Of a DNA stretch of 64,000 nucleotides, positions 3,212 to 17,852 are shown piece by piece (position 1 is the stretch's first letter; every line of letters starts with the position of its first letter). The position numbers were made by a program, and so were the translations under genes. The DNA lies in contig NZ_CP032229.1 in assembly GCF_004328625.1 (NCBI RefSeq), positions 1 to 64,000 of the forward strand, given 5' to 3'. The notes beneath the pieces are model-generated. The model ran no database searches and had not been told where the DNA came from. It saw only the letters and a list, made by a program, of their open reading frames with translations. The DNA comes from Streptomyces seoulensis (GTDB taxonomy: Bacteria > Actinomycetota > Actinomycetes > Streptomycetales > Streptomycetaceae).

Positions 3212-3243
3212 GTGTTCAACCGCGGAGGGGCGCAGTTGAACAC
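3212..3243. repeat. 32-nt palindrome, copy A (13-6-13)
   Basis: Left arm GTGTTCAACCGCG, six-base loop, right arm CGCAGTTGAACAC; one mismatch between arms. The element includes the stop codon of the M20 amidohydrolase gene, so it lies at the 3' end of the minus-strand operon and may act as its terminator. Three further copies with exactly the same 13-6-13 layout are found at 16754, 17024 and 17821. Confidence 0.8.
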
Positions 3244-4520
3244 GGGCCTGAAGCGGTTTTCAGGGCGGTGCGCAGGAGGATCTCGGCGCCCAGGACGAGG
3301 TCGGCGGGGTGGGTGTCCTCGTGAGGGACGTGGCTGACGCCGCCGACGCTGGGGACGAAGATCATGGCGGTGGGGGTGAGGTCGGCGACGACCTGGGCGT
3401 CGTGGCCGGCGCCGCTGGGCAGCGACTGGTAGGGGGCGCCGGTCTCCCGGCAGCTCTCCTCGATCAGGGCGCGCAGGCGGGCGCTGGTGGCCACGGGTGC
3501 GGAGTGGGTGCGGGCGAGGGTTTCGATGCGGGTGCCGGTCTGGTGGGCGAGGTCCTGCAGTTCGCGGGTGAGGACGGTTTCGGCCCGGTGCATGCGGGCG
3601 GCGTCGGTGTCGCGCAGGTCGGCGGTGAGCCGGACGGTGTCGGCGATGGTGTTGGGCGAGTTGGGGTGGATGTCGAGGCGGCCGACGGTGGCGACCCGGC
3701 ACAGGTCCAGGGTGGTGGCGAGGCGTTCGACGGCCAGGGTGGCGCGGGCGGCTGCGGCCAGGGCGTCGCGGCGGCCGGGCATGGGGGCGGTGCCGCAGTG
3801 GCCGGCGCTGCCGCTGATCTCGAGGGTGAGGACGGTGCGTCCGGTGATGCCGTCGACGACGCCGATCCGGTTGCGGGCGCGTTCGAGGACGGGTCCCTGC
3901 TCGACGTGGAGTTCGAGGTAGGCGGCCAGTGCTTCGGCGGGCCAGACGGCGCTGCCCAGGGCGTCGAGGTCGCCGCCGGCCAGGGCGAGGGGGCCGCGCA
4001 GGGGGTGGCCGTCGTGGTCGAGGGGTTCGCGGGGCAGGCCGTCGAGGCGGCCGGCCAGGACGGAGGAGCCGAAGAAGGGCTGGGGGAACAGGGCGCCTTC
4101 TTCGTTGGAGAAGGCGGCCGCCACCGGCTCGTAGGCGGTCTCGATGCCCGACTCGGCGCATGCCTGGACCACTTCCAGGGCCGCCAGCACGCCGTAGGCG
4201 CCGTCCAGGCGGCCGCCGTTGACGACCGTGTCCAGGTGGGAGCCCATCAGGACGGCCGGGCGGGCGGGTGCGGTGCCCGGGGGGCGGGTGCGGATCATGA
4301 GGTTGCCGGCGGCGTCCACCGAGGTCGCAAGGCCTGCGGCCCGGCTCTCCCGCATGACGTAGGTGCGGGCTTCGCGGTCGGCGCGGCTGAAGCCCTCGCG
4401 GGTGATGCCGCCGGTCACCGGGTCACGGCCGATACGGCCCAGTTCCTCCACGCGGCGCAGCAGGCGTTCGGCGTCGATGGCGGGCTGGGCGGTGCGGCGG
4501 TGGGCCACTGGTTGACTCAT
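3216..4520 (-). CDS. M20-family Zn amidohydrolase (allantoate/N-carbamoyl-amino-acid hydrolase type)
   Basis: The 434-residue protein has the di-metal signature of the AmaB/HyuC branch of M20: SHLDTV (His95, Asp97), LDGAYGV (Asp106), NEEG (Glu140/141), LHVEQGPVLE near residue 208 and a C-terminal HVPHEDT. The dimerisation lid lies between about 215 and 330. Family members split amide bonds of allantoate, N-carbamoyl amino acids or small peptides in the cytosol. It follows the S9 peptidase gene and ends the minus-strand run of the RiPP region. I infer a role in trimming or releasing the last residues of the precursor peptide, or in degrading by-products; an unrelated catabolic role cannot be excluded. 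Confidence 0.85.
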   Translation of the reverse strand: MSQPVAHRRTAQPAIDAERLLRRVEELGRIGRDPVTGGITREGFSRADREARTYVMRESRAAGLATSVDAAGNLMIRTRPPGTAPARPAVLMGSHLDTVVNGGRLDGAYGVLAALEVVQACAESGIETAYEPVAAAFSNEEGALFPQPFFGSSVLAGRLDGLPREPLDHDGHPLRGPLALAGGDLDALGSAVWPAEALAAYLELHVEQGPVLERARNRIGVVDGITGRTVLTLEISGSAGHCGTAPMPGRRDALAAAARATLAVERLATTLDLCRVATVGRLDIHPNSPNTIADTVRLTADLRDTDAARMHRAETVLTRELQDLAHQTGTRIETLARTHSAPVATSARLRALIEESCRETGAPYQSLPSGAGHDAQVVADLTPTAMIFVPSVGGVSHVPHEDTHPADLVLGAEILLRTALKTASGPCSTAPLRG

Positions 4521-4623
4521 GAGTCCTCCAGATCGGTTGGGTCGGGCCTGGACGGAAAGAGGGGGGTGGCGTGGGCCGGGCCCCGGTCCCTCGGGAGGGG
4601 TGCCGGGGCCCGGGGGCCGGGTT

Positions 4624-6561
4624 TTAGAGGTGGCGGTCCCACCATTCGAGGACCGCTTCGAAGCGGGCGATGCGGTGGCTGGGCAGGCCGGAGCGGGACA
4701 GGTCGTGGCCTTCGCCGGGGAAGAGGAGGAGTTCGACGGGGACGCCGCGGGTCTTCAGGGCCACGAAGAGCCGCTGTGCCTGTTCCATGGGGCAGTGCCG
4801 GTCCTCGTCGGACTGGATGATCAGGACGGGTTTGGTGATGGAGTCGGCGTAGGTCAGTGGGCTCTTCTCGGCCCAGCGGGCGGGGTCGGCGCCGTAGAGG
4901 GCGATCGCGACGTTCACGCCGTCGTCGCTGGAGGCGGCGTAGCTGTCCACGGCGTACAGGCCGCGTTCGCCGATGAAGGCGCGGAAGCGGGCGCCGTGGT
5001 GGGCGGCCATCCAGGCGGACATGTAGCCGCCGAAGGAGCCGCCCATCACTCCGACCCGGGAGCCGTCCAGGTCCGGTGCCTCGAGGGCGGTGTCGAGCAG
5101 GGCCAGGAGGTCGGGGGCGGTCTTGCGGGCGAGGTCGTCCACGACGTGCATGCCGTGTTCCTGGCCGTAGCCGGAGCAGCCGCGGGGGTTGCCCAGGACG
5201 ACGGCGTAGCCGGCGCTCGCGTAGACCAGGGCTTCGTCCAGGGCGGCGGGGCCGTTGAGGGTGTAGCCGAACTGGGTGTAGGGGCCGCCCTTGATCTGGA
5301 GCAGGACGGGGTGGGGGCCTTCGCCGCGGGGGCGGACGATCCAGCCCTGGAGGTCGTAGCCGTCCTGGGTGGTGGCGGTGAACTCCTCCACCGGCAGGAC
5401 GTCGGTCTGCTGGGTGAGGCGGTCGCCGAAGCCGGTCAGGAGGTGTTCCTCGCCCGCGCGGAGGCTGAGCAGGTCGCCGGCGCTGGTGGCGCTGGAGACG
5501 ACGGCGGCGACGGTCAGGCCGTCGGGGGTGTCGACGGCGGCGTAGGCGTTGACCTGGCGGGCGCCGGTGATCAGCGGGGTGGGGGTGCTTCCGTCGTAGG
5601 GGACGAGGAGCAGGTGGACCTCGCCGCGGTGGTCGGCGGCGAAGAGGACGCCGTCGGCGACGGGGTGGATCATCTGGCTGGCGAAGCTGAGGTGGTAGTC
5701 CTCGTGGGTGAGGCGGCGGGCGGGGGCGGAGCCGTCGACGGGCGCGGACCACAGGCCGTAACTCATGGTGGCGTAGGCGTTGTTGTTCTCGTCCAGCGGT
5801 TCGGCGGCGAAGCACAGGGTGGCGCCGTCGGGGGCGAAGCGGGGGCAGCCCAGGATGAGGCCGCCGCCGGTCAGCGCGCGCAGGCCGGTGCCGTCGGGGG
5901 CGCACACCCACAGGTCGTTGCGCAGGTCGTCGCCGGCGCCCTGGTGGCGGGCGGCGGTGAAGGCCAGCAGCCGGCCGTCGGGGCTCCAGGAGACGTCCGC
6001 GTGGTCGAAGTCGCCGTCGGTGACCTGGACGGTGGCGGCGGCCGGGTCGTCGGCGAAGGGGTCGGTGACGAAGAGGTGGCGGGGCCGGTCGACGGTGAAG
6101 CCGAAGCCGTCCGCCCAGTAGCGCAGGGTGGTGATGCGGCGCGGGGCCTCGGTGTGCGGGGCGCCGGTGTAGCGGCCGGGGGCGGGCACCCGGGCCATGT
6201 AGGCCAGGCGGGTGGAGTCCGGGCTCCATACGGGCTGTCCGGCGCCGATGGGGTGGCTGGTGACGGGGCGGGCGTCGCCGCCGTCCAGGGGCAGCAGGTG
6301 GATCTGGCCCGGGCCGCCGGGGACGGGGCGCAGGAACGCCAGGTGGCGTCCGTCGGGGGAGAACGCCGGGGCGGCGTCGTGCGGGCCGCGGGTGAGCAGG
6401 CGGGCGGGCCGGCTGCCGTCGGTCTCGGCCAGCCACAGCTCGGACACATACCCGTCGGCGGCCAGGTCGGGGCGCGTCACCGCGACCGCGGCGAACCGGC
6501 CGTCGCCCGACAGCGTCGGCTTTCCCAGAACAGGAAGGAGATCAATGTCTGTGAACTTCAT
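4624..6561 (-). CDS. S9-family prolyl oligopeptidase-type serine peptidase
   Basis: The 645-residue product has an N-terminal seven-bladed propeller of WD/TolB type (about 1-370, repeats such as PVWSPDSTRLAYMA and VSWSPDGRLLAFTA) and a C-terminal alpha/beta hydrolase domain. The catalytic triad is visible: Ser509 in GGSFGGY, Asp587 in SDEDRHCP and His619 in GEGHD. No signal peptide is present, so it acts in the cytosol on short peptides, as is usual for acylaminoacyl- and dipeptidyl-peptidases of this family. It lies directly behind precursor gene 1, separated by a hairpin and a terminator. A role in leader removal is my inference. Confidence 0.9.
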   Translation of the reverse strand: MKFTDIDLLPVLGKPTLSGDGRFAAVAVTRPDLAADGYVSELWLAETDGSRPARLLTRGPHDAAPAFSPDGRHLAFLRPVPGGPGQIHLLPLDGGDARPVTSHPIGAGQPVWSPDSTRLAYMARVPAPGRYTGAPHTEAPRRITTLRYWADGFGFTVDRPRHLFVTDPFADDPAAATVQVTDGDFDHADVSWSPDGRLLAFTAARHQGAGDDLRNDLWVCAPDGTGLRALTGGGLILGCPRFAPDGATLCFAAEPLDENNNAYATMSYGLWSAPVDGSAPARRLTHEDYHLSFASQMIHPVADGVLFAADHRGEVHLLLVPYDGSTPTPLITGARQVNAYAAVDTPDGLTVAAVVSSATSAGDLLSLRAGEEHLLTGFGDRLTQQTDVLPVEEFTATTQDGYDLQGWIVRPRGEGPHPVLLQIKGGPYTQFGYTLNGPAALDEALVYASAGYAVVLGNPRGCSGYGQEHGMHVVDDLARKTAPDLLALLDTALEAPDLDGSRVGVMGGSFGGYMSAWMAAHHGARFRAFIGERGLYAVDSYAASSDDGVNVAIALYGADPARWAEKSPLTYADSITKPVLIIQSDEDRHCPMEQAQRLFVALKTRGVPVELLLFPGEGHDLSRSGLPSHRIARFEAVLEWWDRHL

Positions 6562-6618
6562 GCCCCCGAATTTAGGGGCCGCCGATAAAGACCGTCAATG
6601 GTGGTGGATTTGAACAGC

Positions 6619-6656
6619 AAAAAGGCGCGAAGACGGTTTTCCGTGTCTTCGCGCCT
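6619..6656 (-). terminator. Intrinsic terminator between precursor 1 and the S9 peptidase gene
   Basis: On the minus strand a stem AGGCGCGAAGAC pairs with GTCTTCGCGCCT around a short A-rich loop and is followed at once by TTTTTGC. This is a textbook intrinsic terminator, rare in such GC-rich DNA. It would make the precursor transcript a short monocistronic RNA and leave the peptidase gene to read-through or its own promoter. Confidence 0.8.
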
Positions 6657-6682
6657 GCATATTCGTATTGTTTTTCCATGTT

Positions 6683-6727
6683 GCGGCGGAGGGGCGGTCG
6701 CGGAATCTTGTCCGCCCCTCCGGCCGC
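6683..6727 (-). terminator. GC hairpin just after precursor gene 1
   Basis: Ten bases after the precursor stop the minus strand reads GCGGCCGGAGGGGCGG, a 13-base loop, then CCGCCCCTCCGCCGC. The same arms follow precursor gene 2, with a different loop. Conservation of the arms but not the loop points to selection for the hairpin, most likely to protect the 3' end of a small abundant mRNA. Confidence 0.75.
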
Positions 6728-6737
6728 AGCAGCTTTA

Positions 6738-6827
6738 TTACTGGATGTTGACGTAGTACGAGGTCGCGAGAAGCTCGGCGGAGGTCTCGATGAACTCGAT
6801 GTCGTCGAACGCCACGGTGCTCTCCAT
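6738..6827 (-). CDS. RiPP precursor peptide 1 (29 residues)
   Basis: A 29-residue ORF with TAA stop and AGGAG eight bases before the ATG. It begins MESTV, has an acidic leader with AFDDIEFIET at residues 6-15, and ends ELLATSYYVNIQ. There is no Cys and no Lys/Arg, so the peptide is strongly acidic. A second gene at 16389 encodes the same peptide with Asn instead of Ser at position 3; of four base differences between them, three are silent. Size, acidic leader, duplication and surrounding oxygenase, peptidase and exporter genes identify it as a RiPP precursor. The leader/core boundary is not visible; the C-terminal Tyr-Tyr-Val-Asn-Ile-Gln is the likely core. I do not recognise the product. Confidence 0.85.
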   Translation of the reverse strand: MESTVAFDDIEFIETSAELLATSYYVNIQ

Positions 6828-6855
6828 GATGCTCACTCCTTAACTGTCTCGGTTT

Positions 6856-6875
6856 CCGCCGGTGTTTCCCGGCGG
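6856..6875 (-). promoter_or_regulatory. 5'-leader stem-loop of precursor gene 1
   Basis: CCGCCGG pairs with CCGGCGG around a six-base loop. It starts at about the predicted transcription start, some 28 bases before the start codon. An equivalent stem with altered sequence stands at the same place before precursor gene 2, which suggests an mRNA-stabilising cap or a translation control element. Confidence 0.65.
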
Positions 6876-6882
6876 TGATGAA

Positions 6883-6912
6883 ATATTCGCCCCGCCGGGC
6901 CCCTTGCGTCAA
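6883..6912 (-). promoter_or_regulatory. Promoter of precursor gene 1
   Basis: Minus strand: -35 TTGACG (6907-6912), 18-bp spacer, -10 GAATAT (6883-6888). Precursor gene 2 has TTGACG, 18 bp, GAGTAT at the matching distance, although the spacer sequences differ. This is a vegetative (HrdB-like) promoter pattern. A degenerate copy of the 32-nt palindrome family (6905-6941) overlaps the -35 box. Confidence 0.7.
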
Positions 6913-6941
6913 CTGCGGGCGGTGCCGGGAAAGTTGGACAC
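6905..6941. repeat. Degenerate copy of the palindrome family over the -35 box of precursor 1
   Basis: The arms read TGCGTCAACTGCG and GAAAGTTGGACAC with an 11-base loop, against the family layout of 13-6-13. The outer TTGGACAC and inner TCAACTGCG match the family. It may be a decayed element or an operator half-site pair. Confidence 0.4.
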
Positions 6942-6976
6942 CATTTCCTGGACGGTTTTCCCGGCGGGCATGTGAA

Positions 6977-7010
6977 AGCGCCCCCGGCCGCGCATGCGGC
7001 AAGGGGCGCT
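6977..7010 (-). terminator. Terminator after the LOG-family gene
   Basis: On the minus strand AGCGCCCC...GCCGC pairs with GCGGC..GGGGGCGCT around a four-base loop and is followed by TTTC. It begins about 30 bases after the LOG stop codon and would separate the long operon from the precursor 1 unit. Confidence 0.65.
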
Positions 7011-7041
7011 CTGAAGGCGGGGCGCGGCGGGGGGGCGGGGG

Positions 7042-7647
7042 TCAGACGGCCGCAGGCACCGGCTGTGTGCGGGCGGCGGTGAGCAGGTCGAGGGCGTCCT
7101 CGACGTCCCGGCCCTCCTGGATCAGGCTCCGCTCCGCCTCCTTGAGGAACCCCTCGTGCACGAGGTGGTCCAGCATGCCCAGCAAGGGGTCGAAGAAACC
7201 CTGGTGATTGACCACGACGATCGGTTTGCGCATGAGTGACAACTGGTTCCAGGTCGCCACCTCCAGCAGTTCGTCCAGCGTCCCGAAACCGCCCGGCAGC
7301 ACCGCGAAACCCGCGGAGAGCCGGTACATGAGCGCTTTGCGTTCATGCATGGAACGCACCAGGAAGAGCGCGCCCGGCGCATTGTCGGCGCGCTCGCGTT
7401 CGTGGAGGAAACGCGGCACCACCCCGGTGACGCCGCCGCCGGCGTCGATGACGGAATGCGCCACCGCGCCCATCACCCCCACTCCCCCGGCCCCGTACAC
7501 CAGGTCCAGGCCGCGGCGGGCCAGCGCGGTGCCGAATTCCCGGGCGAGCAGCAGATGGCCGGGGCGGGCGCCGTCGCGGGCGCCGCAGAACACGGCGATC
7601 TTCTTGCTCTGCGCTATCTCGGGGGGCATCTCCATGACAGAGGACAT
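7042..7647 (-). CDS. LOG-family (TIGR00730) nucleoside-monophosphate phosphoribohydrolase-like protein
   Basis: The 201-residue product shows both hallmarks of the LOG family: a Rossmann start with GAGGVGVMG (52-60) and the PGGFGTLDE motif (118-126), with the HERK segment (101-104) that supplies the conserved Arg/Lys. Known members release the base from nucleoside 5'-monophosphates, best known for cytokinin activation in plants and bacteria. The ATG has AAGGAA upstream. It is the last gene of the operon led by the oxygenases, MFS and M13 genes, followed by a terminator. Why a peptide cluster needs it is unclear: it might supply a free base or ribose phosphate for tailoring, or be a passenger. 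Confidence 0.85.
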   Translation of the reverse strand: MSSVMEMPPEIAQSKKIAVFCGARDGARPGHLLLAREFGTALARRGLDLVYGAGGVGVMGAVAHSVIDAGGGVTGVVPRFLHERERADNAPGALFLVRSMHERKALMYRLSAGFAVLPGGFGTLDELLEVATWNQLSLMRKPIVVVNHQGFFDPLLGMLDHLVHEGFLKEAERSLIQEGRDVEDALDLLTAARTQPVPAAV

Positions 7648-7787
7648 CTCGGATTCCTTCGGAGTCGGTCGCGTCGGCCGCGTTTCGTCGCGGTCGGTCG
7701 CGGGCGGTCGTTTCGCGCGGGGCGTGCCCCTTTTTTTTCGGCGGGAGCTGCCCCGGGGTTGTGCGGGAGCTGCCCGGGGGTGCTGGG

Positions 7788-9224
7788 TCAGGCGAGGGCG
7801 GTGAGGCGGCGTTCGACGGAGGCGGCCTCGTCCAGGCGGTCCTGGGCCCGGTACACCGCCGCCGCGCTCCCCCACACCGTGCGGGCGTCGGCCGGGCGGC
7901 CGGTGGCGGCGTAGCTGTCGCCGAGCCGGTCCAGGGCGCCGGCCTCCTGGTAGGTGTTGCCCAGGGTGCGGCAGTGGGCGAGGGCGGCGGTGAAGGCGTG
8001 GACGGCGTCCTCGTGCCGGCCGTTCGCCTGGGCGAGCAGGCCCAGGCTGTCCAGCGCGGCCGCCTGCCCGCCCAGGTAGCGGTGGCGGCGGGCCAGGTCC
8101 AGGGCGCGGGCGCAGTACCGCCCGGCCTGGACGGGATCGCCCAGGCGGGTGAAGTACCAGCCGGCCGCGTTGAGGGCGTCGGCCTGGGCCCTCCACTGCT
8201 GGGCGCGGGCGAACAGGCCCGCCGCGCAGATCGCGTGGGTCAGGGCCGCCGCGTCGTCGCCGGCCATCTCCTCGGTCCAGGCCAGGATGTAGTACGCCCA
8301 CGCCTGCGGGCCCGGCCGTCCGTGGCGCTCGGCGATGCGCACCGCCCGCTGGAGATGGGCCAGAGCATCGGGATGCCGGCCGGCGCGGCTGGCGGCCTGC
8401 CCGGCGTAGCGGTGGGCGGTGATCTGCGCCTCCGGGTCGCCCAGGGCGTGCGCGGCGCGCAGGGCGTCGGCCCACTGCCGCTGCTGCAGGGCGGTGTGGC
8501 CGCGGCGGACGTAGTGCCCGTTGAGGCAGGCCGCCAGGTGGAACACCGTCCACCGCTCACCCCTGTCACGCGCGCTCTCCCGGATCGCGGTCAGGGCGTG
8601 GTGCTCCTCGTCCAGCCAGGCCAGCGCCGCCTCCCGGGAGACGAACCTCTCCGGAGTGCAGCCCGGTTCCACCGGGGCGAGGGGGAGTTGGGGGCGGTGG
8701 GGGGCCAGGAGACGCTCCGCGTGGTGGGCGGTGTGCAGGTAGTGCCCGGCCAGGCGGCGCAGGGCCTCGCCGTCACCGGGGCGCACCCCGGCCGGGTGGG
8801 CCGGCGGGGCCGGGCGGGGCCGGTAGCGGCCCGGCCCGGTCCGCTCGCACAGCCCGCCCCCGGCCAGCCGCTCCAGCAGCACCGCCGCCCGCTCCGCACC
8901 GACCGCGAGCAGCGAGGCGGCCGCGGCGACGGCGATGTCCGGGCCCGGCACCAGACGCAGCAGATGCCAGACCTGGCCGTCACCCGGCGCGTAGCAGGGC
9001 CGCAGCGGGGCGGAGGCGGCCGGCGCGGGGGCGGGCTGGGCCGGGGCGGCCATCACGGACCCGGCCTGCACAGGGGCAGCCAGCGCGGGCGCGGGGACGG
9101 CCGGGGCCTGGGCGGCCTGCACGGGGGCGGCCACCATGGACGTGCCCTGCGCGGGTGCTGCCGGCGCGGGGGCGCTCTGGCCGGGCGCGGCCGGGGCGGG
9201 GGTGGCTGGGTGGGTGTGGGCCAT
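7788..9224 (-). CDS. TPR protein with AfsR-like winged helix but no DNA-binding or ATPase domain
   Basis: The 478-residue protein starts at an ATG with AGGAGG; an apparent extension upstream is antisense-like Arg/Pro noise inside the M13 gene. Residues 1-75 are Ala/Pro-rich. Residues about 80-140 (QVWHLLRLVPGPDIAVAAAA then ERAAVLLERLAGGGL) resemble the winged helix that follows the NB-ARC ATPase in AfsR/SARP regulators. From about 190 to the end come tetratricopeptide repeats (for example AWAYYILAWTEEMAGDDAAA). The SARP DNA-binding and NB-ARC parts are missing. It could be a scaffold for the biosynthetic enzymes or a remnant of a regulator. It lies between the M13 and LOG genes in the same direction. 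Confidence 0.75.
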   Translation of the reverse strand: MAHTHPATPAPAAPGQSAPAPAAPAQGTSMVAAPVQAAQAPAVPAPALAAPVQAGSVMAAPAQPAPAPAASAPLRPCYAPGDGQVWHLLRLVPGPDIAVAAAASLLAVGAERAAVLLERLAGGGLCERTGPGRYRPRPAPPAHPAGVRPGDGEALRRLAGHYLHTAHHAERLLAPHRPQLPLAPVEPGCTPERFVSREAALAWLDEEHHALTAIRESARDRGERWTVFHLAACLNGHYVRRGHTALQQRQWADALRAAHALGDPEAQITAHRYAGQAASRAGRHPDALAHLQRAVRIAERHGRPGPQAWAYYILAWTEEMAGDDAAALTHAICAAGLFARAQQWRAQADALNAAGWYFTRLGDPVQAGRYCARALDLARRHRYLGGQAAALDSLGLLAQANGRHEDAVHAFTAALAHCRTLGNTYQEAGALDRLGDSYAATGRPADARTVWGSAAAVYRAQDRLDEAASVERRLTALA

Positions 9225-9264
9225 GGGGTGCCTCCTGGGCGGGGCCGTCAGCCGGCCGGGCCGG

Positions 9265-11412
9265 TCACAGCAGCGTGAACCGGTCCTCGGGCGGGATGAA
9301 CATCGAGTCGGTCTCGGTGACGCCGAACGCCCGGTAGAACGCCGGGACATGGCCGAGGACGGCGTTGCAGCGCACCTGGGGCGGGGCGTGCCGGTCGTGG
9401 GCGAGCCGCTCGCGCATCCGGCCCGGTGTGCGCTTGACCCGCCACATCGTGGCCCACAGCGTGAAGAACCGCCGTGTCTGCGCCTCTTGTTCGGCCTCGG
9501 TGAGGGCGGAGGCGGCCAGGTGGGCGGCGAACGCGGTGTGGGCGACGGTGAGGCCGGTGATGTCGGCGATGTTCTCCCCCGCCGTGCGGGCACCGCTGAC
9601 GTGCTCCCCGTCCAGCCCGCCGGGCACGTAACGGTCGTAGTGGCTGATCAGGAGAGCGGTGCGCCGGGTGAACTCGGCGCGGTCCTCGGTACTCCACCAC
9701 TCGCGCAGCCGGCCCTCACCGTCGTAAGCCGAACCGCGGCTGTCGAAGGCGTGGGACATCTCGTGGCAGACGACCGAGCCCAGCAGGGCGAAGTTACGGG
9801 TCATGTCGCCGCCCGCGTCGAACAGCGGCGGCTGCAGCAGCGCCGCGGGCACGACCACCTGGTTCAGGCCGTGCCGGTAGTAGGCGGTGACCGCCTGCGG
9901 CGCCACCTTCCACTCCCCCCGGTCCACCGGACCGGCCAGACGGCCCAGCTGGCGCTCGAAGGACCGGGCGCGGCCCCGGCGTACGTTGCCCAGCAGATCG
10001 GCCGGGTCGGTGTGCAGGGGGCCGCGCGCGGCCATGTCCTGGGGGTGGCCGAGTTCCACGCGCAGGGCGTCCAGCTTCGCCAGCGCCGCCCGCCGTGTGC
10101 TGTCCGCCATCCAGCCGGCCTGCTCCAGCCGGCCCCGGTAGGCCGCCCGCAGGGCGTCCACCAGATCGGCGGCCGCCTTCAGGGTGCCCGGCGCGAGATG
10201 CCGGCGCAGGTAGCGCTCGCCCACCTCGTCTCCCAGCACGGTCTGCACGAAGGACGTCGCCCGCATCCAGCGCGGCCGGGCCCGGCGCGAACCGGTGAGG
10301 ACCTGGCCGTAGAAGCGGAAGTTCTCCGCGAACAGGGCGGGCGGAGCGAACGGGGCCGCCTCGTGGACCTGCGACCACACCAGCCACAGCTTCAGCTCCT
10401 GCACACTGTGCGCGCTCCACCACGCGTCCAGGGCACCCCGGTAGGGGCCGGGGCGGATCTGGAGGCGGGCGGCGGACGGGATGTCGCCCAGACCGTCCAG
10501 GAACGCCCCCCACGGAAAACCCCCCTCCCCGCCGCCGTCCCCGCCGGCGATGGCGGCGGTGGCGGTGAGGTCGGCGGCGGTGGTCACCTCGGCCTGGGCG
10601 CGGATACGGCCGGAGGCGTCGGGGCGGGTGTGGGCGGCGGCCAGCGCGCTCTCCACCCGCAGCGCCGTACGCGCCGCCTCCTGCGGGTCCGCCTGGCCGG
10701 CCAGGCGCAGGACCGCCCCCACATGGGCGGCGTACTGCTCACGCAGCGGGGCGTGGCCGGGGTCGAGGTAGGCGGCCGGGCCGCCGGGCAGCGCGAGACC
10801 GGACTGGGTGAGGGTGAGGAGATAGCCGCGCACCCCGGTGGTGTCGGCGTCCACCGTCGCCTCCACCGGCCCGCCCACCCCCTCACGCTGCAGACGGCCC
10901 ATCAGACGGGCCAGCTCCTCGCGTGCGGTGACCGCGCGGACGGCGTCCAGGAGAGCGGTCAGGTCGGCCGGGCCGCGTACGGCGAGGGCGTCCTCGTCCA
11001 TGAAGCTGGCGTACAGGTCGGCGATCTGCCGCCCCGCACCCGCCACCGGGACAGCGTCAGTACCGGTGGCGGTGGCGGTGGCGGTGGGTGTGGGTGTGGG
11101 TGTGGGTGTGCTGTCGCGGATCACGGCGACGACGTCGTCCTGCACCTTCTCGGCCAGCAGGGACAGCAGCGTCGCCTCGGCCCGGTGCTCGGGCAGCCGG
11201 AACGCCTTCAGCCAGCGCCCGTTGACATGGGCGTGGAAGTCGTCCTGCGGCCGCACCGACGGATCGGTGTCGACATCACCGGCGCCGAAACCGGTGCTGG
11301 TGCCGGCATCGCCGGTGCCGGTGCCGGTGCTGGTGTCGCCGGTGCCGGTGCCGGTGCTGGTGTCGCCGGTGCCGGTGCCGGTGCTGGTGTCGTGCGCCGT
11401 GTCCGCGCTCAC
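9265..11412 (-). CDS. M13-family (neprilysin/PepO-like) zinc metallopeptidase
   Basis: The 715-residue protein has the M13 zinc site HEMSH (His550, Glu551, His554), the third ligand Glu613 in GENIAD with Asp617, and the family start RPQDDFHAHVNGRWL near residue 55. No signal peptide or membrane anchor precedes it, so it is a cytosolic PepO-like endopeptidase acting on peptides below about 40 residues, a good fit for a 29-residue precursor. Its start overlaps the MFS stop as ATGA. Residues about 8-34 are three exact TSTGTGTGD repeats that come from a DNA minisatellite and are not part of the family fold. A role in leader proteolysis is inferred. Confidence 0.9.
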   Translation of the reverse strand: MSADTAHDTSTGTGTGDTSTGTGTGDTSTGTGTGDAGTSTGFGAGDVDTDPSVRPQDDFHAHVNGRWLKAFRLPEHRAEATLLSLLAEKVQDDVVAVIRDSTPTPTPTPTATATATGTDAVPVAGAGRQIADLYASFMDEDALAVRGPADLTALLDAVRAVTAREELARLMGRLQREGVGGPVEATVDADTTGVRGYLLTLTQSGLALPGGPAAYLDPGHAPLREQYAAHVGAVLRLAGQADPQEAARTALRVESALAAAHTRPDASGRIRAQAEVTTAADLTATAAIAGGDGGGEGGFPWGAFLDGLGDIPSAARLQIRPGPYRGALDAWWSAHSVQELKLWLVWSQVHEAAPFAPPALFAENFRFYGQVLTGSRRARPRWMRATSFVQTVLGDEVGERYLRRHLAPGTLKAAADLVDALRAAYRGRLEQAGWMADSTRRAALAKLDALRVELGHPQDMAARGPLHTDPADLLGNVRRGRARSFERQLGRLAGPVDRGEWKVAPQAVTAYYRHGLNQVVVPAALLQPPLFDAGGDMTRNFALLGSVVCHEMSHAFDSRGSAYDGEGRLREWWSTEDRAEFTRRTALLISHYDRYVPGGLDGEHVSGARTAGENIADITGLTVAHTAFAAHLAASALTEAEQEAQTRRFFTLWATMWRVKRTPGRMRERLAHDRHAPPQVRCNAVLGHVPAFYRAFGVTETDSMFIPPEDRFTLL
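11311..11391. repeat. Triplicated 27-bp minisatellite inside the M13 gene
   Basis: Three exact, contiguous 27-bp copies, each built from GCCGGT units, encode the Thr/Ser/Gly/Asp-rich N-terminal tail. Being a multiple of three, copy number can change without breaking the frame. Confidence 0.9.
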
Positions 11413-12869
11413 CGGGATGCGGCCTTGTCCGGGACGGGGCGGGCCGGCACGGCCGGTTCCCGGGCGGTGTCCAGGGCAGGGCCGGTGACGGTGCCCGCGG
11501 CCGGCTCCGGGACGGTGAGCCCGGATTCGGCGCGGACGGTGCCCGCGGCCGTGTCCGTGACGGACTCAGGGGCGGTGCCCGCGACGGTGTCGGCGGCCGG
11601 CCCGGCAGCGGGTCCGGCGGCGGGTCCGGGGGCGGGTTCGGGGGCGGGTTCGGGGGTGGTGGCGGCGGTGTGGAGCAGGGCGCGGTGGAAGACCAGGACG
11701 GCGAGCAGGGAGCAGGTGCCGGCCAGGAGGAAGGCGTAGCGGGGCTGGATGAAGCCGAGGATGACGCCGCCCATCAGGTAGCCCAGGGCGGGGCCGGTGT
11801 TGGAGACGGCGCCCAGGGCGGCGAAGGCGCGGCCGCGGTGGCTGTCGGGGACGCGGAGGTTGATGACGATGTGGGTGACGGTGGCCTGGGCGCCGTTGCC
11901 GAAGCCGCCGATGATGTAACAGGGCACGATCCACCAGGCGCCCGGGGCCAGGCCGGTGGCGAGGATGCCTGCCGAGATGCACAGGAACGAGCCGATCAGG
12001 AGGGCCTCGTGGCTGAGCTTCTTGATCCGGCGCACCAGCAGGGCGCCGGGGACCAGGCCGGCCATCCAGGCGGACATGATCAGCCCGTAGGTCTCCTCGG
12101 AGCCGCCGAAGGTGTCGCGGACGTAGAAGACGATGAGGACGTTGATGATGCTGGCGGCCGCCATGACGACGCCGCTGACGGCGAGGATGGAGCGCAGGAA
12201 GCGGTCCCCGCTCACCCGGTAGGCCGGACCCGTCTGCTTGCCCGTGTCCGCGGGGCTCTGGGCGGCGGGGGCGGTGTGGTGCAGGCGGGTGCGGATGGTC
12301 AGGGCGCCGGCGACGACCACGGCGAAGGAGGCGGCGTCCAGGAGCAGGGAGATACGGACGCCGAAGTGGGCGGTGAGGAAACCGGCGATGCCCGGGGCGA
12401 TGACCATGCCCGCCATCGCGGTGGTCTGGGAGATCGCCGAGGCGCGCGGGATGTTGTCCTTGCCGACCATCGCCGCGGGCAGCCCGGCGAACACCGGGTG
12501 GGTGAAGGCCAGTCCGGTGGAGAGCAGTACCGCGAGCACGATCAGCAGGGCCGGGGTGGTGGTCTGGGTCATCGCCAGGCAGGCCAGGATCTGCAGCGAG
12601 GCGACCGTGACGATGAGGCGGCGGCTGTCGAAGCGGTCGGCGAACCGGCCGGTGAGCGGGGCCAGCAGCGCCGGGGGGACGGCCGCGGCCAGCAGCAGGG
12701 CCATGACCGCGTACGATCCGGCGCCGTTGGCCTGGAGCAGCAGGGTCAGGGCGGTGGCGGCGGCGATGTCACCGGCGAAGGACAGTCCCCGCATGCCGGC
12801 CAGGACGTAGACGTCCCGCCACGCGGGAGCAGCCGTGGCGGTGGGGGGCGGTGGGGTGATGGCGGTCAT
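11409..12869 (-). CDS. MFS transporter, probable peptide exporter
   Basis: The 486-residue protein has about twelve hydrophobic segments in residues 15-400 and the MFS loop signature between TM2 and TM3 (GRFADRFDSRRLIV). It resembles the TMR0/MacrolideR-type drug exporters (MFS_3 group). Residues about 405-486 form an unusual cytoplasmic tail of Pro/Glu/Ala/Gly/Thr repeats, which the family does not normally have. It lies directly after the second oxygenase gene (16 bases) and overlaps the M13 start, so it belongs to the operon. Export of, and self-protection against, the mature peptide is the likely role. Confidence 0.85.
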   Translation of the reverse strand: MTAITPPPPTATAAPAWRDVYVLAGMRGLSFAGDIAAATALTLLLQANGAGSYAVMALLLAAAVPPALLAPLTGRFADRFDSRRLIVTVASLQILACLAMTQTTTPALLIVLAVLLSTGLAFTHPVFAGLPAAMVGKDNIPRASAISQTTAMAGMVIAPGIAGFLTAHFGVRISLLLDAASFAVVVAGALTIRTRLHHTAPAAQSPADTGKQTGPAYRVSGDRFLRSILAVSGVVMAAASIINVLIVFYVRDTFGGSEETYGLIMSAWMAGLVPGALLVRRIKKLSHEALLIGSFLCISAGILATGLAPGAWWIVPCYIIGGFGNGAQATVTHIVINLRVPDSHRGRAFAALGAVSNTGPALGYLMGGVILGFIQPRYAFLLAGTCSLLAVLVFHRALLHTAATTPEPAPEPAPGPAAGPAAGPAADTVAGTAPESVTDTAAGTVRAESGLTVPEPAAGTVTGPALDTAREPAVPARPVPDKAASR

Positions 12870-12885
12870 GACGGGAGGTCAGCTC

Positions 12886-14088
12886 CTAGTTGCGGTCGGC
12901 GGTTTCCAGTACCCCGAGACGGGTCAGCCCCTGGGCGACGTGCACGGACCGGGCTTCGTCCACGCCCGGGAAGAAACGGGCGGCTGCCACCGCGCGGCCG
13001 TCGGCCAGGGCGCGCAGGGCCTCGGCGACGGCGTCGGGCACGGCCAGCCGGTGGCCGTTGACGAGCAGGGCGCTGCGGGCGCCGTCGCTCGGGCCGATCT
13101 CCAGCGGTACCGGGCTGCGGCGCAGCAGGGCGGCGGGGGCCAGGACGTCCGCGGACGCCAGGCGTTCGAACTCCCGGGGCCGGCCGGCACCCGCGCGGGC
13201 AGCGCCCATCTCGCGCAGCCGGACCGCCTCCGCATCCGTGTCCAGGCCGGTCAGGAGTCCGGCGAGGCGGGCGGACAGGGCACCGAGCGTGGCGGCGGTG
13301 TCGGGGGCGGCGGGCTCGGCCAGGTACGGGAAGCCGTCGAAGGCGGGGTCGGCCAGGAGGTGCTGGACGGTGTCGGCCAGCAGGTCGCGCCAGCGGCGCG
13401 GCTCGACGGTGACCGACAGGTGCAGGGACACCTGGTCCTTTGCGGCCGCTGCGTGCGGGGTTCCATAGGGCAGGTACAGGACGTCACCCGCACGCAGCGT
13501 CGTCTCGATGGCCGGCGCCCCCAGGTCCTCGGGCCGGTAGGAGACCTTGCCGGCGCGGCGGCCGGCCGGCGGCTCCCAGATCCGCCAGTCCTTGGTGCCC
13601 TCGATCTGGATGACGTAGACGTCGACCGGGTCGTGGTGAGGGGCGTAGCCGTCGCGGCCGGCGGGGGTGAGGAAGGCGACGACCTCGCTCTCGCAGGCGA
13701 AGGTGGCGGCGAACATCTCGGCCAGGCGGCGGGCGGAGGGCAGGAAGTGGTTCAGCGCGTTCCAGGTGACGGTGCCGCCGGAGCGGAACAGCTCGTACAC
13801 CTGCCCGGCGACGACCGCCTCGGTCAGTCCCGCCCCGCGGTCGGAGACGGTGCGGGTGTACGCCTTGCCGGGCACACCGCGGCCGTCCTTGGCGATCCGC
13901 AGGTAGGCGGGTGAGACGGTCTGCATCGCCACGATGTCGTCGAGCTGCCGCACCGACACCAGATCCCGGGCCCGGCCGTCCAGGGCGCCCCTGCGCAGCA
14001 GCGGCTTGCGGTTGAAGTACTCCTGGAAGAAGACCTGCCGGTCTCCGACGAGGTCTTCGAAGCCTTGGGGGGTCGTGGATGTGTCCAC
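12886..14088 (-). CDS. JmjC-domain (cupin-8) 2-oxoglutarate/Fe(II) oxygenase B
   Basis: The start is a GTG at 14088 with GGAGG eight bases upstream; the frame continues upstream through Pro/Arg-rich repeat DNA that is not coding. The 400-residue product is of the ribosomal-oxygenase type (YcfD/MINA53/NO66). Fe ligands are His151 and Asp153 in PHHDPVDVY and His212 in YGTPHAAA; a Lys in EGTKDWRIW (residue 166) is in the place used for 2-oxoglutarate. The C-terminal third is a winged-helix-like domain, as in these enzymes. Known relatives hydroxylate Arg, His or Asn side chains in proteins. It is a paralogue of oxygenase A and heads the MFS/M13 operon. I infer that it hydroxylates the precursor peptide. 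Confidence 0.85.
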   Translation of the reverse strand: MDTSTTPQGFEDLVGDRQVFFQEYFNRKPLLRRGALDGRARDLVSVRQLDDIVAMQTVSPAYLRIAKDGRGVPGKAYTRTVSDRGAGLTEAVVAGQVYELFRSGGTVTWNALNHFLPSARRLAEMFAATFACESEVVAFLTPAGRDGYAPHHDPVDVYVIQIEGTKDWRIWEPPAGRRAGKVSYRPEDLGAPAIETTLRAGDVLYLPYGTPHAAAAKDQVSLHLSVTVEPRRWRDLLADTVQHLLADPAFDGFPYLAEPAAPDTAATLGALSARLAGLLTGLDTDAEAVRLREMGAARAGAGRPREFERLASADVLAPAALLRRSPVPLEIGPSDGARSALLVNGHRLAVPDAVAEALRALADGRAVAAARFFPGVDEARSVHVAQGLTRLGVLETADRN

Positions 14089-15106
14089 GCTCTTCGCCTC
14101 CAGCGGACGGGATAGGGCCAGGGGTGGGAACGGTGGTGCCGGTGCGGGGAATGAGGGGGCGGGCCCAGAGGGGGCCCGCCGGGCGGGGCGGGATTGCAGA
14201 TGGCGGGGTGGGGCTTGGAGCGCCTCCCGCCGGGCGGGCGGGGCGAGGCCCGCCGGGCGGGCGGGGCGAGGCCCGCCGGGCGGGCGGGGCGGGATCGGCG
14301 GGTGGGGCGGGGGCAGGTGGCTCGGGTGGGACGAGGCCCGCGGGGCGGGTCGGCGGGTGGCCGGCGCGGAAGGAGGGCCGCCGGGCGGGACGGCGTCGGC
14401 GGGTGGCCGGGGGCCGGGGGCCCCGGTAGGACGAGGCTCGCCGGGCCGGCGGGTGGCCGGCGCGGGGCGAGGCCCGCCGGGTGGGGCGGGGCGGGGTCGA
14501 CGGGTGGGGCGGGGGCAGGTGGCCCGGGTGGGACGAGGCCCGCCGGGCGGGCGGGGCGGGGTCGACGGGTGGGGCGGGGGCAGGTGGCCCCGGTAGGACG
14601 AGGCTCGCCGGGCGGGACGGGCCGGGCGGGTGGCCGGGGCGGGACGGGCGGGTGGCCGGGGCGGGGCGAGGCCCGCCGGGCGGGGCGGGGCGCCTCCCCG
14701 GCCGGCGCGCCGGGGCCCGGGGTCCAACTGCCGGGGCGAGGGGCGGGTTTTCGGTCCCCGGGGTTCGGGACTGCGGTGTCACCAGGTGGCGTCACACCCG
14801 GGGCACTCCCCTGCCCGGGGGCGGCGCCGGGGTTCAACTTCCCCAGTACGGCCGGGTGTTACGGGCCCCGGGCGGGGCTGGGTGTGTCAGGCGGTACCCG
14901 GGTGTCGCGGGCCGGTGCCGGCCGGGTGTTCAACTGCCCGGGCGGTAGCAGGTGTTGCGTGCCGGGGCTGTGCGCGGGGCCTTCCTGGGTGCGGGGGCCT
15001 GGCCCCCCCGGCAGCGGCCGGCGCGAACCGCCTGCTGCCGGGGGGGCCGTGACCGGTGGCCTCGCTGCGGGGCGCGGCCGGGTCCCCCTGCCGAAGGGGG
15101 CCCGTT
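14089..15106. repeat. Gene-free G-rich region with long minisatellite
   Basis: This 1-kb gap between the two oxygenase genes has no credible gene. From about 14190 to 14740 the plus strand is a G-rich repeat array. Its clearest unit is about 50 bp long and begins at 14291, 14493 and 14559, the last two 66 bp apart; between them are many GCCCGCCGGGCGGG tracts. Apparent Pro/Arg/Gly-rich ORFs on both strands are only products of this composition. From 14750 to 15050 there are single half-sites of the palindrome family (GGTTCAACTT near 14832, GTGTTCAACTGC near 14927). Confidence 0.7.
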
Positions 15107-16288
15107 TCAGTGAGGGGCGACTTCGAGGACGCCCAGGCGGGTCAGGCCCTGGGCGGCCTTCGTGGCGCGCTCGGGGTCGACGCCGGGGAAGATGTCACCG
15201 GCCGGGACGTCCGCTTCCAGACCGGCGAGGGTCTCCGCGACCGGGGTGGGAACGGCGATCTTGTGACCGTTGACCGTCATCTGCGTGCGCCCGCCGTCGT
15301 TCGCGCCGAACTCCACCACCGCCGCCGTACGCCGCAGCAGCACCGAGGGGGTGATGCGGTCGGTCTCGGCGATCGTCTGGAAGGTCGTGCCGTGCGAACT
15401 GCCCGGCATCGTACGGCCCAGCTCGGCCAGCCGGTCCAGCTCCGCGCCGCTGTCCAGGGCGTCCATGCGGGCGGCCAGCGCGGCGATCTTCTGCCGGAAC
15501 AGGGCCTCGGTACCGGCGTCCCGCAGGGCCCCGATGTGCGGGTACTGGTTGAACTCCGGCCCGGAAGCGGCCTGTTCGAACGTCTCGCGCAGCAGGTCCT
15601 TCCACATCCGCGGCCGCATCATGATCGACAGATGCAGCGACACCTGGTCCTCGGCGGCCGCCGCGTGCGGGGTGTTGTACGGCAGGTACAGGACGTCACC
15701 CGGCTCCAGCAGGACCTCGATGGCCGGCTCGCCGAGCTCCTCGTCGGTGTAGGAGGCGTTGTCACCCTCACGCTGGGCGGGCAGGTCCCACAGCTTCCAC
15801 CGCTTGGTGCCCTCCAGCTGCACGATGAACAGGTCGACCGGGTCGTGGTGCGGGAGGTAACCGCGCTTCTTGGTGGGCGTCATGAACCCCACCACGTCGG
15901 TACGCACGGCCATCTTGTCGCTGATGACACGGGTGAAGTCCCGCAGCTCGGGCACGATCTGGTTCAGCGAGCACCAGGTGACCGTCGCACCGGCCCGGAA
16001 CAGCTCGTAGATCTTCTCCGGCACCACCGTGTCGGTGATGTTCACACCCTGCACGACCACACTGCGCGTGTAGCCCTTCTCAGGGACACCGGAACCGTTG
16101 TGGTTGACCTTGATGTACGGCGGCCGGATCGACTCCATGTGCAGCAGCTCGTCGAGCTTGCGGACCGACAGGATGTCCCGGACATCGCCCGGCATCGCGT
16201 TCTTCCGCAGCAGGGGCTTCTTGTCGAAGTACTCGGCAAAGAAGACCTTTTCGTCCCCCACCAGATCTTCGAATGTGAAGTCGTACAT
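15107..16288 (-). CDS. JmjC-domain (cupin-8) 2-oxoglutarate/Fe(II) oxygenase A
   Basis: The 393-residue protein begins MYDFTFEDLVGDEKVF at an ATG with AAAGGA seven bases upstream. Iron ligands His147 and Asp149 (PHHDPVDLF) and His208 (YNTPHAAA) are intact, and Lys162 in EGTKRWKLW is placed for 2-oxoglutarate. By eye it shares much sequence with oxygenase B throughout, including the C-terminal domain, so the two arose by duplication. It lies about 100 bases behind precursor gene 2 and is probably made partly by read-through of that transcript. Family knowledge says side-chain hydroxylation; that the acidic 29-residue peptide is the substrate is inference from position. Confidence 0.88.
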   Translation of the reverse strand: MYDFTFEDLVGDEKVFFAEYFDKKPLLRKNAMPGDVRDILSVRKLDELLHMESIRPPYIKVNHNGSGVPEKGYTRSVVVQGVNITDTVVPEKIYELFRAGATVTWCSLNQIVPELRDFTRVISDKMAVRTDVVGFMTPTKKRGYLPHHDPVDLFIVQLEGTKRWKLWDLPAQREGDNASYTDEELGEPAIEVLLEPGDVLYLPYNTPHAAAAEDQVSLHLSIMMRPRMWKDLLRETFEQAASGPEFNQYPHIGALRDAGTEALFRQKIAALAARMDALDSGAELDRLAELGRTMPGSSHGTTFQTIAETDRITPSVLLRRTAAVVEFGANDGGRTQMTVNGHKIAVPTPVAETLAGLEADVPAGDIFPGVDPERATKAAQGLTRLGVLEVAPH

Positions 16289-16333
16289 TGCATTCCTTTC
16301 AATGCCCGATGGCGTGGAACGAAAAGCTTTTAT

Positions 16334-16381
16334 GCGGCGGAGGGGCGGCAGCCTGTACATTCGGGCCGCCCCTCCGGCCGC
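16334..16381 (-). terminator. GC hairpin just after precursor gene 2
   Basis: Minus strand: GCGGCCGGAGGGGCGGC, a loop of about 14 bases, GCCGCCCCTCCGCCGC, then ATAAAAGC. The arms are the same as after precursor gene 1. No second terminator follows here, so part of the transcripts could continue into oxygenase A. That would give much precursor and little enzyme from one promoter. Confidence 0.75.
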
Positions 16382-16388
16382 ATCAGAA

Positions 16389-16478
16389 TTACTGGATGTT
16401 GACGTAGTACGACGTCGCCAGCAGCTCGGCGGAGGTCTCGATGAACTCGATGTCGTCGAACGCCACGGTGTTCTCCAT
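16389..16478 (-). CDS. RiPP precursor peptide 2 (29 residues)
   Basis: This 29-residue ORF encodes the same peptide as precursor 1 apart from Asn instead of Ser at residue 3: start MENTV, acidic AFDDIEFIET, end ELLATSYYVNIQ, stop TAA. GAGGGAGTG precedes the ATG. The codon differences from copy 1 in the last third (three Leu/Thr codons) are all silent, so the C-terminal dozen residues look constrained. It is the first gene of the minus-strand series ending with the exporter and peptidases. Downstream hairpin, promoter and 5' stem-loop are shared in design with copy 1. Confidence 0.87.
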   Translation of the reverse strand: MENTVAFDDIEFIETSAELLATSYYVNIQ

Positions 16479-16510
16479 GCTGTTCACTCCCTCTTGTTTC
16501 CCGGAATTTC

Positions 16511-16528
16511 CGCCGGGCTGTCCCGGCG
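16511..16528 (-). promoter_or_regulatory. 5'-leader stem-loop of precursor gene 2
   Basis: CGCCGGG pairs with CCCGGCG around a four-base loop at about the predicted mRNA 5' end. It is the counterpart of the 6856-6875 stem: the pairing is kept although bases in and around it differ. Confidence 0.65.
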
Positions 16529-16536
16529 ATGACCAA

Positions 16537-16566
16537 ATACTCACCCCGAACGGGCAGGAACGTCAA
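16537..16566 (-). promoter_or_regulatory. Promoter of precursor gene 2
   Basis: Minus strand: -35 TTGACG (16561-16566), 18-bp spacer, -10 GAGTAT (16537-16542), about 52 bases of leader before the ATG. Boxes and spacing match the promoter of precursor gene 1. Confidence 0.7.
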
Positions 16567-16753
16567 CGGAACAAAAACCTGAACAGCACGGCGGCCGGGA
16601 TATACGAAAACCCGGACACGGGGACGGACGAAGAGAAGACCGGCAACCCCGGCGAAGACCAGGAACCCTTGGGTGGTGGGTGGGGTGAGCGAGGGCGACT
16701 GTCCCGGAGGCGAGAGGTGAGGGCCCGCCGGGCGCAGGGGGGCCGGGACGAGG

Positions 16754-16785
16754 GGGGTCAACTGCGGACAGGCGCAGTTGGACAC
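16754..16785. repeat. 32-nt palindrome, copy B
   Basis: Arms GGGGTCAACTGCG and CGCAGTTGGACAC around GACAGG. The right arm is nearly constant in all copies while the left arm varies. It lies about 190 bp upstream of the promoter of precursor gene 2. Confidence 0.8.
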
Positions 16786-17023
16786 CGGGCACAGGCCGGC
16801 CCCGGCCGGGCCGTGAACGGCGAGGAGACGGGGCCGGGAGCCCGGGTAATCCCAGGTGGGAGACGGTAGCGGGGCACATCCCCTTTACCGGGCGGACAGC
16901 GCAACCGGGGCGGCGAGGGGATCTCTCCACAGCGGCAGACGGCCCCCTCCAACCCGCCGGAGGCACACCCCCTCATACGCGAGGCGCACGGCTTTCCCGT
17001 GAACACCTCCGGAGGGAAAAGGA

Positions 17024-17055
17024 GTGTTCAACTGCGCTCGCCCGCAGTTGAACAC
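17024..17055. repeat. 32-nt palindrome, copy C (perfect)
   Basis: GTGTTCAACTGCG, loop CTCGCC, CGCAGTTGAACAC: thirteen perfect base pairs. This is the best copy and serves as the family consensus. Confidence 0.9.
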
Positions 17056-17820: not shown

Positions 17821-17852
17821 GGGTCCAACTGCGGACGACCGCAGTTGAACAC
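17821..17852. repeat. 32-nt palindrome, copy D
   Basis: GGGTCCAACTGCG, loop GACGAC, CGCAGTTGAACAC. The inner ten base pairs pair with one G-U type change; the outer left arm has drifted. Confidence 0.8.

Follow-up and report, generated by a model that had tools for sequence, protein, structure and literature searches.

A 64,000-nucleotide stretch at one end of contig C1 of the 6.4 Mb Streptomyces seoulensis genome (the window) carries a candidate pathway for a ribosomally synthesised and post-translationally modified peptide (RiPP), in which a precursor of 29 residues is encoded close to two paralogous JmjC oxygenases, JmjA and JmjB. In the reading favoured here, to which we give a probability of about 0.82, the paired oxygenases act near a C-terminal SY(Y/H)xNIQ sequence in the peptide, which then undergoes cytosolic proteolysis and export by an MFS protein. 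The tie between this precursor family and its neighbours, namely a pair of JmjC oxygenases, an exporter and genes of peptidase families, put forward in an original prediction made from the DNA alone, is strongly supported by its recurrence across genomes. The candidate family is thus real, but JmjC enzymes are already known in RiPP pathways, and what is new is a paired-JmjC variant and not a new kind of pathway.

The candidate precursor peptide

The two peptides encoded in the window, MENTVAFDDIEFIETSAELLATSYYVNIQ (16478-16392, minus strand) and MESTVAFDDIEFIETSAELLATSYYVNIQ (6827-6741, minus strand), are 29 amino acids long and differ at residue 3, and both open reading frames (ORFs) follow a good ribosome-binding site. 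Their starts are separated by 9,651 bases, so that coordinates and translations bear out the predicted pair of near-identical ORFs some 9.65 kb apart on one strand. A third copy lies at C1:6335100, near the opposite chromosome end, because window positions 12207-20875 are repeated there in inverted orientation (99.9% identity). In this right-end copy of the repeat (locus L012) jmjA, jmjB and the MFS gene are each broken across frames, perhaps by assembly error near the contig end.

Altogether 32 copies were collected. Removal of strains fetched twice (L022=L034, L024=L031, L025=L029) and of the terminal-repeat copy L012 leaves 26 non-redundant copies at 18 Streptomyces and Kitasatospora loci, seven of which have two or three copies, three being the maximum. 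The consensus is M-E-[NSR]-x(1-3)-[FYV]-[DE]-DIEFIET-[SA]-[AE]-[ED]-L-[LM]-AT-[SA]-Y-[YH]-[VKT]-NIQ-stop, over 27-29 amino acids, the constancy of DIEFIET being partly built in since the copies were gathered by that string. Across 15 distinct 63-base segments of the gene, pN is 0.072 and pS 0.264 (ratio 0.27), and fourfold codons are unlike in 300 of 714 comparisons; conservation acts at the protein level. With 26 non-redundant copies at 18 loci and this pN/pS ratio, the ORFs are not chance occurrences, and a short precursor gene under protein-level selection, as a RiPP locus should have, is present, its translation being predicted. So little variation in the peptide points to a single product for each lineage, not to a core that changes. 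Broader peptide patterns returned no further divergent copy, and no secretion signal is visible in the precursor. In four annotated plasmid records that carry the peptide no annotated feature lies beneath it (the collection's gene table has gaps), and annotation-based mining may therefore overlook such clusters.

Gene content and distribution

The features of the window locus are as follows.

16389..16478, minus: precursor peptide gene 1, 29 amino acids, MENTVAFDD...VNIQ; relatives at 18 loci in all
6738..6827, minus: precursor peptide gene 2, 29 amino acids, MESTVAFDD...VNIQ; identical second copy in S. bauhiniae (L035)
16331..16391, minus: hairpin immediately 3' of precursor 1, -41.5 kcal/mol, z -6.4; attenuator-like, no T-run
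6680..6740, minus: hairpin immediately 3' of precursor 2, -35.1 kcal/mol, z -5.4
16537..16566, minus: promoter-like box upstream of precursor 1, TTGACG-N18-GAGTAT
6883..6912, minus: promoter-like box upstream of precursor 2, TTGACG-N18-GAATAT
16759..16780, no strand: inverted repeat CAACTGCG-N6-CGCAGTTG, possible operator; also at 17029 and 17826
15107..16288, minus: JmjA, 2-oxoglutarate (2OG)-Fe(II) oxygenase of the JmjC/ribosomal oxygenase (ROX) type, 393 amino acids; Pfam JmjC_2
12886..14088, minus: JmjB, paralogous JmjC/ROX-type oxygenase, 400 amino acids, GTG start; Pfam JmjC_2
11409..12869, minus: MFS exporter (Pfam)
9265..11412, minus: M13 (PepO/neprilysin-like) metallopeptidase with HEMSH and ENIAD, start codon uncertain (Pfam)
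7788..9224, minus: TPR protein, start uncertain, partial resemblance to AfsR/HaaT (Pfam TPR)
7042..7647, minus: LOG/TIGR00730 phosphoribohydrolase-like protein with PGGFGTLDE (family match)
4624..6561, minus: S9 (prolyl-oligopeptidase family) peptidase with GGSFGG (Pfam)
3216..4520, minus: M20 hydantoinase/carbamoylase-family amidohydrolase (Pfam; TIGR01879)
2132..3133, plus: TrmB/LuxR-type regulator, divergent from the operon (Pfam)
12207..20875, no strand: terminal inverted repeat, other copy L012, 99.9% over 8669 columns

Pfam agrees with the two JmjC oxygenases and the MFS exporter that had been predicted on the precursor strand. Three peptidases of unrelated families had also been claimed, and here the M13, S9 and M20 matches stand, but the M20 protein falls in the TIGR01879 hydantoinase/carbamoylase subfamily, with an N-carbamoyl-L-amino acid hydrolase as its closest solved chain, and is therefore not necessarily a peptidase. 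The M13, S9 and M20 proteins keep their catalytic motifs and have no signal peptide by eye (seven, five and four sequences inspected, respectively). The LOG/TIGR00730 protein, the TPR protein and the divergent TrmB/LuxR regulator had been overlooked.

JmjA, JmjB and the peptide occur together at 18 of 18 loci, each of which also has the M13 gene. Modifying enzymes and a transporter are thus co-located with the precursor, as is characteristic of RiPP clusters. Two arrangements are found. Type A (11 loci) comprises the precursor or precursors, jmjA, jmjB, MFS, M13, S9, M20, LOG and the divergent regulator, to which a small TPR gene (c14; seven loci) is often added; gene order and strand vary somewhat, M20 and LOG being on the opposite strand in L028. 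Type B (seven loci) comprises S9, a carbamoyltransferase, jmjA, a DinB-like gene, the precursor, jmjB, M13, M20, LOG and the regulator. The carbamoyltransferase (c21) is present at 7/7 type B and 0/11 type A loci. The MFS gene is found at all 11 type A loci, and at six of the seven type B loci a more distant MFS gene borders the cluster on the other strand (25% identity where tblastn matched), the seventh being incomplete. Where the loci are long enough to tell, LOG is present at 17/17 and M20 at 15/16 (not found in L026).

The cluster is rare and clade-restricted. The peptide was detected in two of 100 relatives and in eight of 392 genomes of the genus, the window genome being counted in each, and in five plasmid records, all from Streptomyces. 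A JmjA profile search of genome contigs gave 11 loci, ten at >=60% identity and one at 45%, and all ten of the former, including L028 of Kitasatospora, have the peptide nearby. Short ORFs of the predicted kind are therefore found beside JmjC genes in other genomes, as the original prediction expected. No similar peptide was found in the 20.8 kb of L036, the locus with the 45% homologue. Among 293 genomes of the order the JmjA profile reached E <= 1e-20 in 81, whereas a close JmjC pair (E <= 1e-130) is present in four, all of them peptide-positive, no other genome having a match better than 1e-41; among 394 genomes of the class, only the window's own passed 1e-60 with the JmjC profile. Five loci sit on linear plasmids, and the cluster looks mobile, with a spread that is patchy and often plasmid-borne.

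A YcaO gene in L006 was considered as a partner of the cluster and rejected: it is accompanied by a precursor-like ORF of its own, in which AVIHNR repeats occur, and was treated as a neighbouring cluster. This ORF (L006:5177-5296, MISTVKIPAVTAVIHNRAVIHNRAVIHNRAVIHNRSVVK) lies directly ahead of the SagD-type YcaO gene, in the company of MFS, GNAT and DUF885 genes, and the region is likely to be an azole-type RiPP cluster in its own right, next to the JmjC cluster and with a core that is repeated. Outside the cluster in the window are xylose-isomerase-like TIM barrel genes at 22169-23230 and 24731-25900 and a nitroreductase-family gene at 655-1218.

The JmjC oxygenases

In a tree built on the first 300 positions, JmjA and JmjB form sister clades (support 0.998 each, 0.925 jointly), with the L036 protein next (0.993). 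The latter is a lone JmjC relative of 298 amino acids that has 45% identity, lacks the C-terminal domain and is encoded directly after a P450 gene (L036:8792-10897). Against solved sequences, the JmjA and JmjB profiles matched NO66 best and MINA next (E 2e-26 and 7e-26), the match of JmjA to NO66 spanning the catalytic part (profile positions 93-280). AlphaFold2 gave JmjA a pLDDT of 51 with 11 close relatives; a 65-row alignment was used instead, with which pLDDT was 91.3 and pTM 0.79. Foldseek placed NO66 first for this model (E 4e-25, 19% identity, TM 0.57, root-mean-square deviation (rmsd) 9.4), followed by MINA. The model thus puts JmjA in the same superfamily as NO66, although the domain arrangement may differ. 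H147, D149, K162 and H208 are invariant in 65/65 rows of the JmjA alignment, giving an HxD...H triad and a 2OG lysine; from the NO66 alignment and the roles of such residues in the family we take these residues to bind the metal and 2OG.

The last ~80 residues of JmjA are modelled as a winged-helix-like domain, strands then helices, which completes the ROX fold for JmjA, the only one of the pair assessed in this way. When the JmjC C-terminal domain was compared by hhalign with the N-terminal domain of SagB-like proteins from L067, L079 and L080, the match reached 75% with a 56-row profile, whereas own-family rows by themselves gave 10% and outgroup rows by themselves 22%. The comparison is not sensitive, since one between the SagB domain and the L006 YcaO region gave no link (0.3%). 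A leader-binding domain of the RiPP recognition element (RRE) type in JmjA and JmjB is thus suggestive only. It was also considered whether the carbamoyltransferase of type B loci ends in a JmjA-like domain, an idea that was rejected (hhalign 0.2%); comparisons of this kind with the carbamoyltransferase C-terminus and the YcaO region gave 0.2-0.4%.

Putative transcription signals of the precursor genes

On balance, the precursor copies appear to be transcribed as separate units. Neither of the two stop-proximal hairpins in the window was equalled in stability by any of 200 shuffled sequences, and of the 25 distinct stretches that lie downstream of all the precursor copies, 21 beat 100/100 shuffles, the weakest being one L024/L031 copy (7/100 shuffles). 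The 32 copies gave 25 distinct upstream regions, the other seven being duplicate or too short; these regions are mutually related, so pattern counts among them are not independent. TTGAC is present in 23/25 of them against 2.75% of 2000 random windows, GTTCAAC-type half-sites in 22/25 against a background of 6.5%, a stricter promoter pattern with a -10-like part in 12/25 against 1%, and a 5' hairpin pattern in 19/25. The box of precursor 1 begins exactly at 16566, the coordinate at which the predicted cluster had been taken to end.

The CAACTGCG-N6-CGCAGTTG repeats that lie upstream of precursor 1 are also found upstream of the precursors in L026, L027 and L035. A similar but less perfect inverted repeat at 3217 overlaps the M20 gene at its end. 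The TrmB/LuxR regulator is present at 13 of the 15 loci long enough to reach it and was not found in L006 or L028. This protein probably controls the precursors' own promoters, a target that we infer.

A proposed pathway and its alternatives

In the proposed pathway, the 27-29-residue peptide would be the precursor, with its acidic part, [DE]DIEFIET..[ED]L, serving as leader and SY(Y/H)(V/K/T)NIQ as the end that is modified. The paralogous ROX-like JmjA and JmjB would hydroxylate side chains in this C-terminal end, the leader possibly having been captured beforehand by their C-terminal winged-helix domain. The M13 and S9 proteins, with or without the M20 amidohydrolase, would then cut off the leader in the cytosol and trim the remainder down to a very small product for export by the MFS protein. 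In the type B lineage a hydroxyl may additionally be carbamoylated by the NodU-type enzyme. The β-hydroxylated C-terminal peptide that was originally predicted is consistent with the conserved C-terminus and with an intact ROX-type active site. The gene set, its conservation, the predicted fold, the catalytic residues, the promoter-like boxes and the hairpins are directly supported; that the JmjC proteins act on the peptide, where and how they oxidise it, where it is cleaved, that the product is exported and what the LOG and TPR proteins may contribute are matters of inference.

Several points weigh against this pathway. It is a prediction from sequences and models. The peptide hardly varies, and there is thus no contrast of conserved and variable parts by which to divide leader from core. 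In one strain (L024/L031), no in-frame ATG occurs in either precursor copy where one is usually found, through either draft-assembly error or decay. The structural superpositions are loose (TM 0.46-0.63 and rmsd 7.6-11.4 over the NO66, MINA and YcfD rows), a C-terminal winged helix is also found in the ROXs that act on ribosomal proteins, and no Pfam RRE or PqqD model matched the JmjC C-terminal domain. A scan of the window for sigma-70 consensus promoters flagged neither precursor box, and a terminator scan flagged neither hairpin, because no T-run follows them. Finally, the scheme assigns nothing to the conserved LOG protein, which hints at unusual chemistry.

The JmjC proteins might instead be ribosomal oxygenases that modify a ribosomal protein, for example in self-resistance, the peptides being unrelated. 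Their closest solved relatives, NO66 and MINA, are indeed histidyl hydroxylases of ribosomal proteins. We nevertheless consider this very improbable, as JmjA is only ~19% identical to NO66, the two paralogues are cluster-specific and were found only with the peptide in the searches made, and a highly conserved multi-copy peptide would be left functionless. BipG and PbsQ, as far as the available accounts of them go, also show JmjC/cupin hydroxylases serving RiPP pathways.

Two further explanations assign the peptide a regulatory role. The ORFs could be leader peptides whose translation governs the hairpin and hence, by attenuation, the enzyme genes downstream, which would account for the very stable hairpin that comes at once after most copies. 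Hairpins commonly follow RiPP precursor genes, however, and the copies, up to three per locus, precede differing genes (jmjA, jmjB, S9, TPR). The amino acid sequence is also conserved over its whole length and not as a single-codon run, so that attenuation deserves very little credence. Alternatively, a peptide that is small, nearly invariant and multi-copy, and that is accompanied by a regulator at most loci, could be a signalling or regulatory small protein, for instance a ligand of the TrmB/LuxR protein, with the JmjC enzymes acting on some other substrate. This is just as doubtful, given the lack of a visible secretion signal, the constant company of a peptide-type oxygenase pair and several hydrolases, and the fact that the two loci in which no LuxR homologue was found keep both peptide and oxygenases.

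Within the favoured RiPP reading, the peptide could be a disposable scaffold, from which peptidases free the JmjC-modified C-terminal residues as a tripeptide, dipeptide or single amino acid metabolite. A near-invariant peptide, cytosolic peptidases and an MFS exporter all fit this idea, which we hold tentatively and think somewhat less probable than its contrary.

Relation to known systems

No class-defining YcaO, lanthipeptide, lasso or radical SAM enzyme was found by Pfam among the scanned window cluster genes, which agrees with the claim that no known RiPP class fits; that claim goes too far, however, in that biphenomycin RiPPs already use JmjC hydroxylases. According to the available portions of the reports, BipG is a JmjC γ-ornithine hydroxylase in the biphenomycin pathway (PMC12707348) and PbsQ a JmjC ornithine hydroxylase in the pbs pathway (PMC12257519). 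As described there, these systems resemble the window cluster in having a JmjC/cupin oxygenase that acts on a short ribosomal precursor, together with MFS and TPR-annotated genes. Unlike biphenomycin, the scanned window cluster genes have no MNIO, radical SAM (including B12) or TldD Pfam match, there are two JmjC paralogues rather than one, and the peptides have no FRF core. The TPR-annotated protein of the biphenomycin and pbs clusters is, in those portions, a peptide arginase; the window protein gave only TPR matches, and the window peptides contain no Arg.

Crocagin, as far as the available text describes it, has a 21-residue precursor with a three-residue core, a dioxygenase (CgnC), homologous peptide-handling proteins (CgnB and CgnE) and a carbamoyltransferase (PMC10070186). 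A very short precursor, a dioxygenase and, at type B loci, a carbamoyltransferase are shared with the present clusters, the two being set side by side by description and not by Cgn protein sequence. Crocagin-like precursors are described there as conserving Tyr and Trp, whereas the present C-terminus, ...NIQ, has no Trp and hence no Tyr-Trp core.

The likeness to NO66, MINA and YcfD lies in the predicted fold, HxD...H site and C-terminal winged helix of JmjA; apart from the low identity, the ribosomal oxygenases differ in that the window JmjC genes accompany a dedicated cluster peptide and not a ribosomal protein. Pyrroloquinoline quinone (PQQ) and mycofactocin pathways likewise pair a small near-invariant precursor with peptidases, as if for one small molecule. 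They differ from the present cluster in that no radical SAM match was found among its scanned genes, and in its patchy, often plasmid-borne distribution.

RRE-like folds fused to PF08007 JmjC proteins have been described, as have carbamoyltransferases that carry a fused RRE; bacterial homologues of the former are placed in RiPP-like contexts (PMC12710340). In the portion of that work available, the JmjC proteins share PF08007 and a winged-helix domain with JmjA; they are fish and algal proteins, and no bacterial precursor matching the present peptide is named. No paper on the precursor peptide strings was found in literature whose coverage largely excluded subscription papers. Papers on RiPPs together with JmjC, cupin, ribosomal oxygenase or 2OG dioxygenase, as well as PMC13060819, PMC12636437 and PMC12871766, do not describe the present cluster in their available portions. 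A search joining cupin, RiPP, hydroxylase and Streptomyces returned none, and none of the papers listed for TIGR00730/phosphoribohydrolase with RiPP contained those two terms.

Other small ORFs beside JmjC genes

A parallel system is found at L067:8578-13728, L079:9015-14265 and L080:9103-14409, where one, two or three 18-residue ORFs (MDIVIIEDSEALAHHQGL / MDIVIIEDREVVAHHPSL or -PSK) with good ribosome-binding sites are followed by a SagB-family dehydrogenase gene, two JmjC genes and an MFS gene. L041/L067 is the next-best JmjC locus outside the present family in the profile search of the order genomes. The opening residues of the 18-residue peptide recur in two of the 392 genus genomes, one with two tandem copies and the other with three, and the neighbouring genes are unchanged. 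Homology between the window leader and these MDIVIIED peptides was considered and rejected: for two variants, the ungapped score was reached by 140/5000 and 832/5000 shuffles, which is not significant. The parallel system is therefore an analogue by gene context only.

Precursor-like ORFs of other kinds also lie near Streptomyces JmjC genes: in L054, 157 nt ahead, an ORF that repeats VISDNDPxDPV units, and in L044, 385 nt ahead, another (MAEEYSLDAASINISYPAGVV...). ORFs with AAGTPGVHDGGADGGA-like repeats stand immediately ahead of a JmjC gene in L057, L060 and L062. At L064:1076 an ORF has an FDLDV leader-like start and a Cys-rich end (MTNETTQDLFDLDVREV...CEGSCHRPYCI), the nearby JmjC gene being on the opposite strand.

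Implications

With one 29-residue substrate and two enzymes, the cluster offers a compact and testable case, in which the JmjC oxygenases are the only modifying enzymes visible in the window. The enzyme group to which they belong is otherwise known mainly from ribosome and chromatin biology. The carbamoyltransferase lineage predicts variants of the product. If the peptide does serve as a scaffold, the pathway would be a JmjC counterpart of the logic of PQQ, mycofactocin or pearlin. The cluster would then belong to a wider set of 'JmjC-pair mini-RiPPs', which would include the 18-residue MDIVIIED...AHHxxL/K peptides of L067, L079 and L080.

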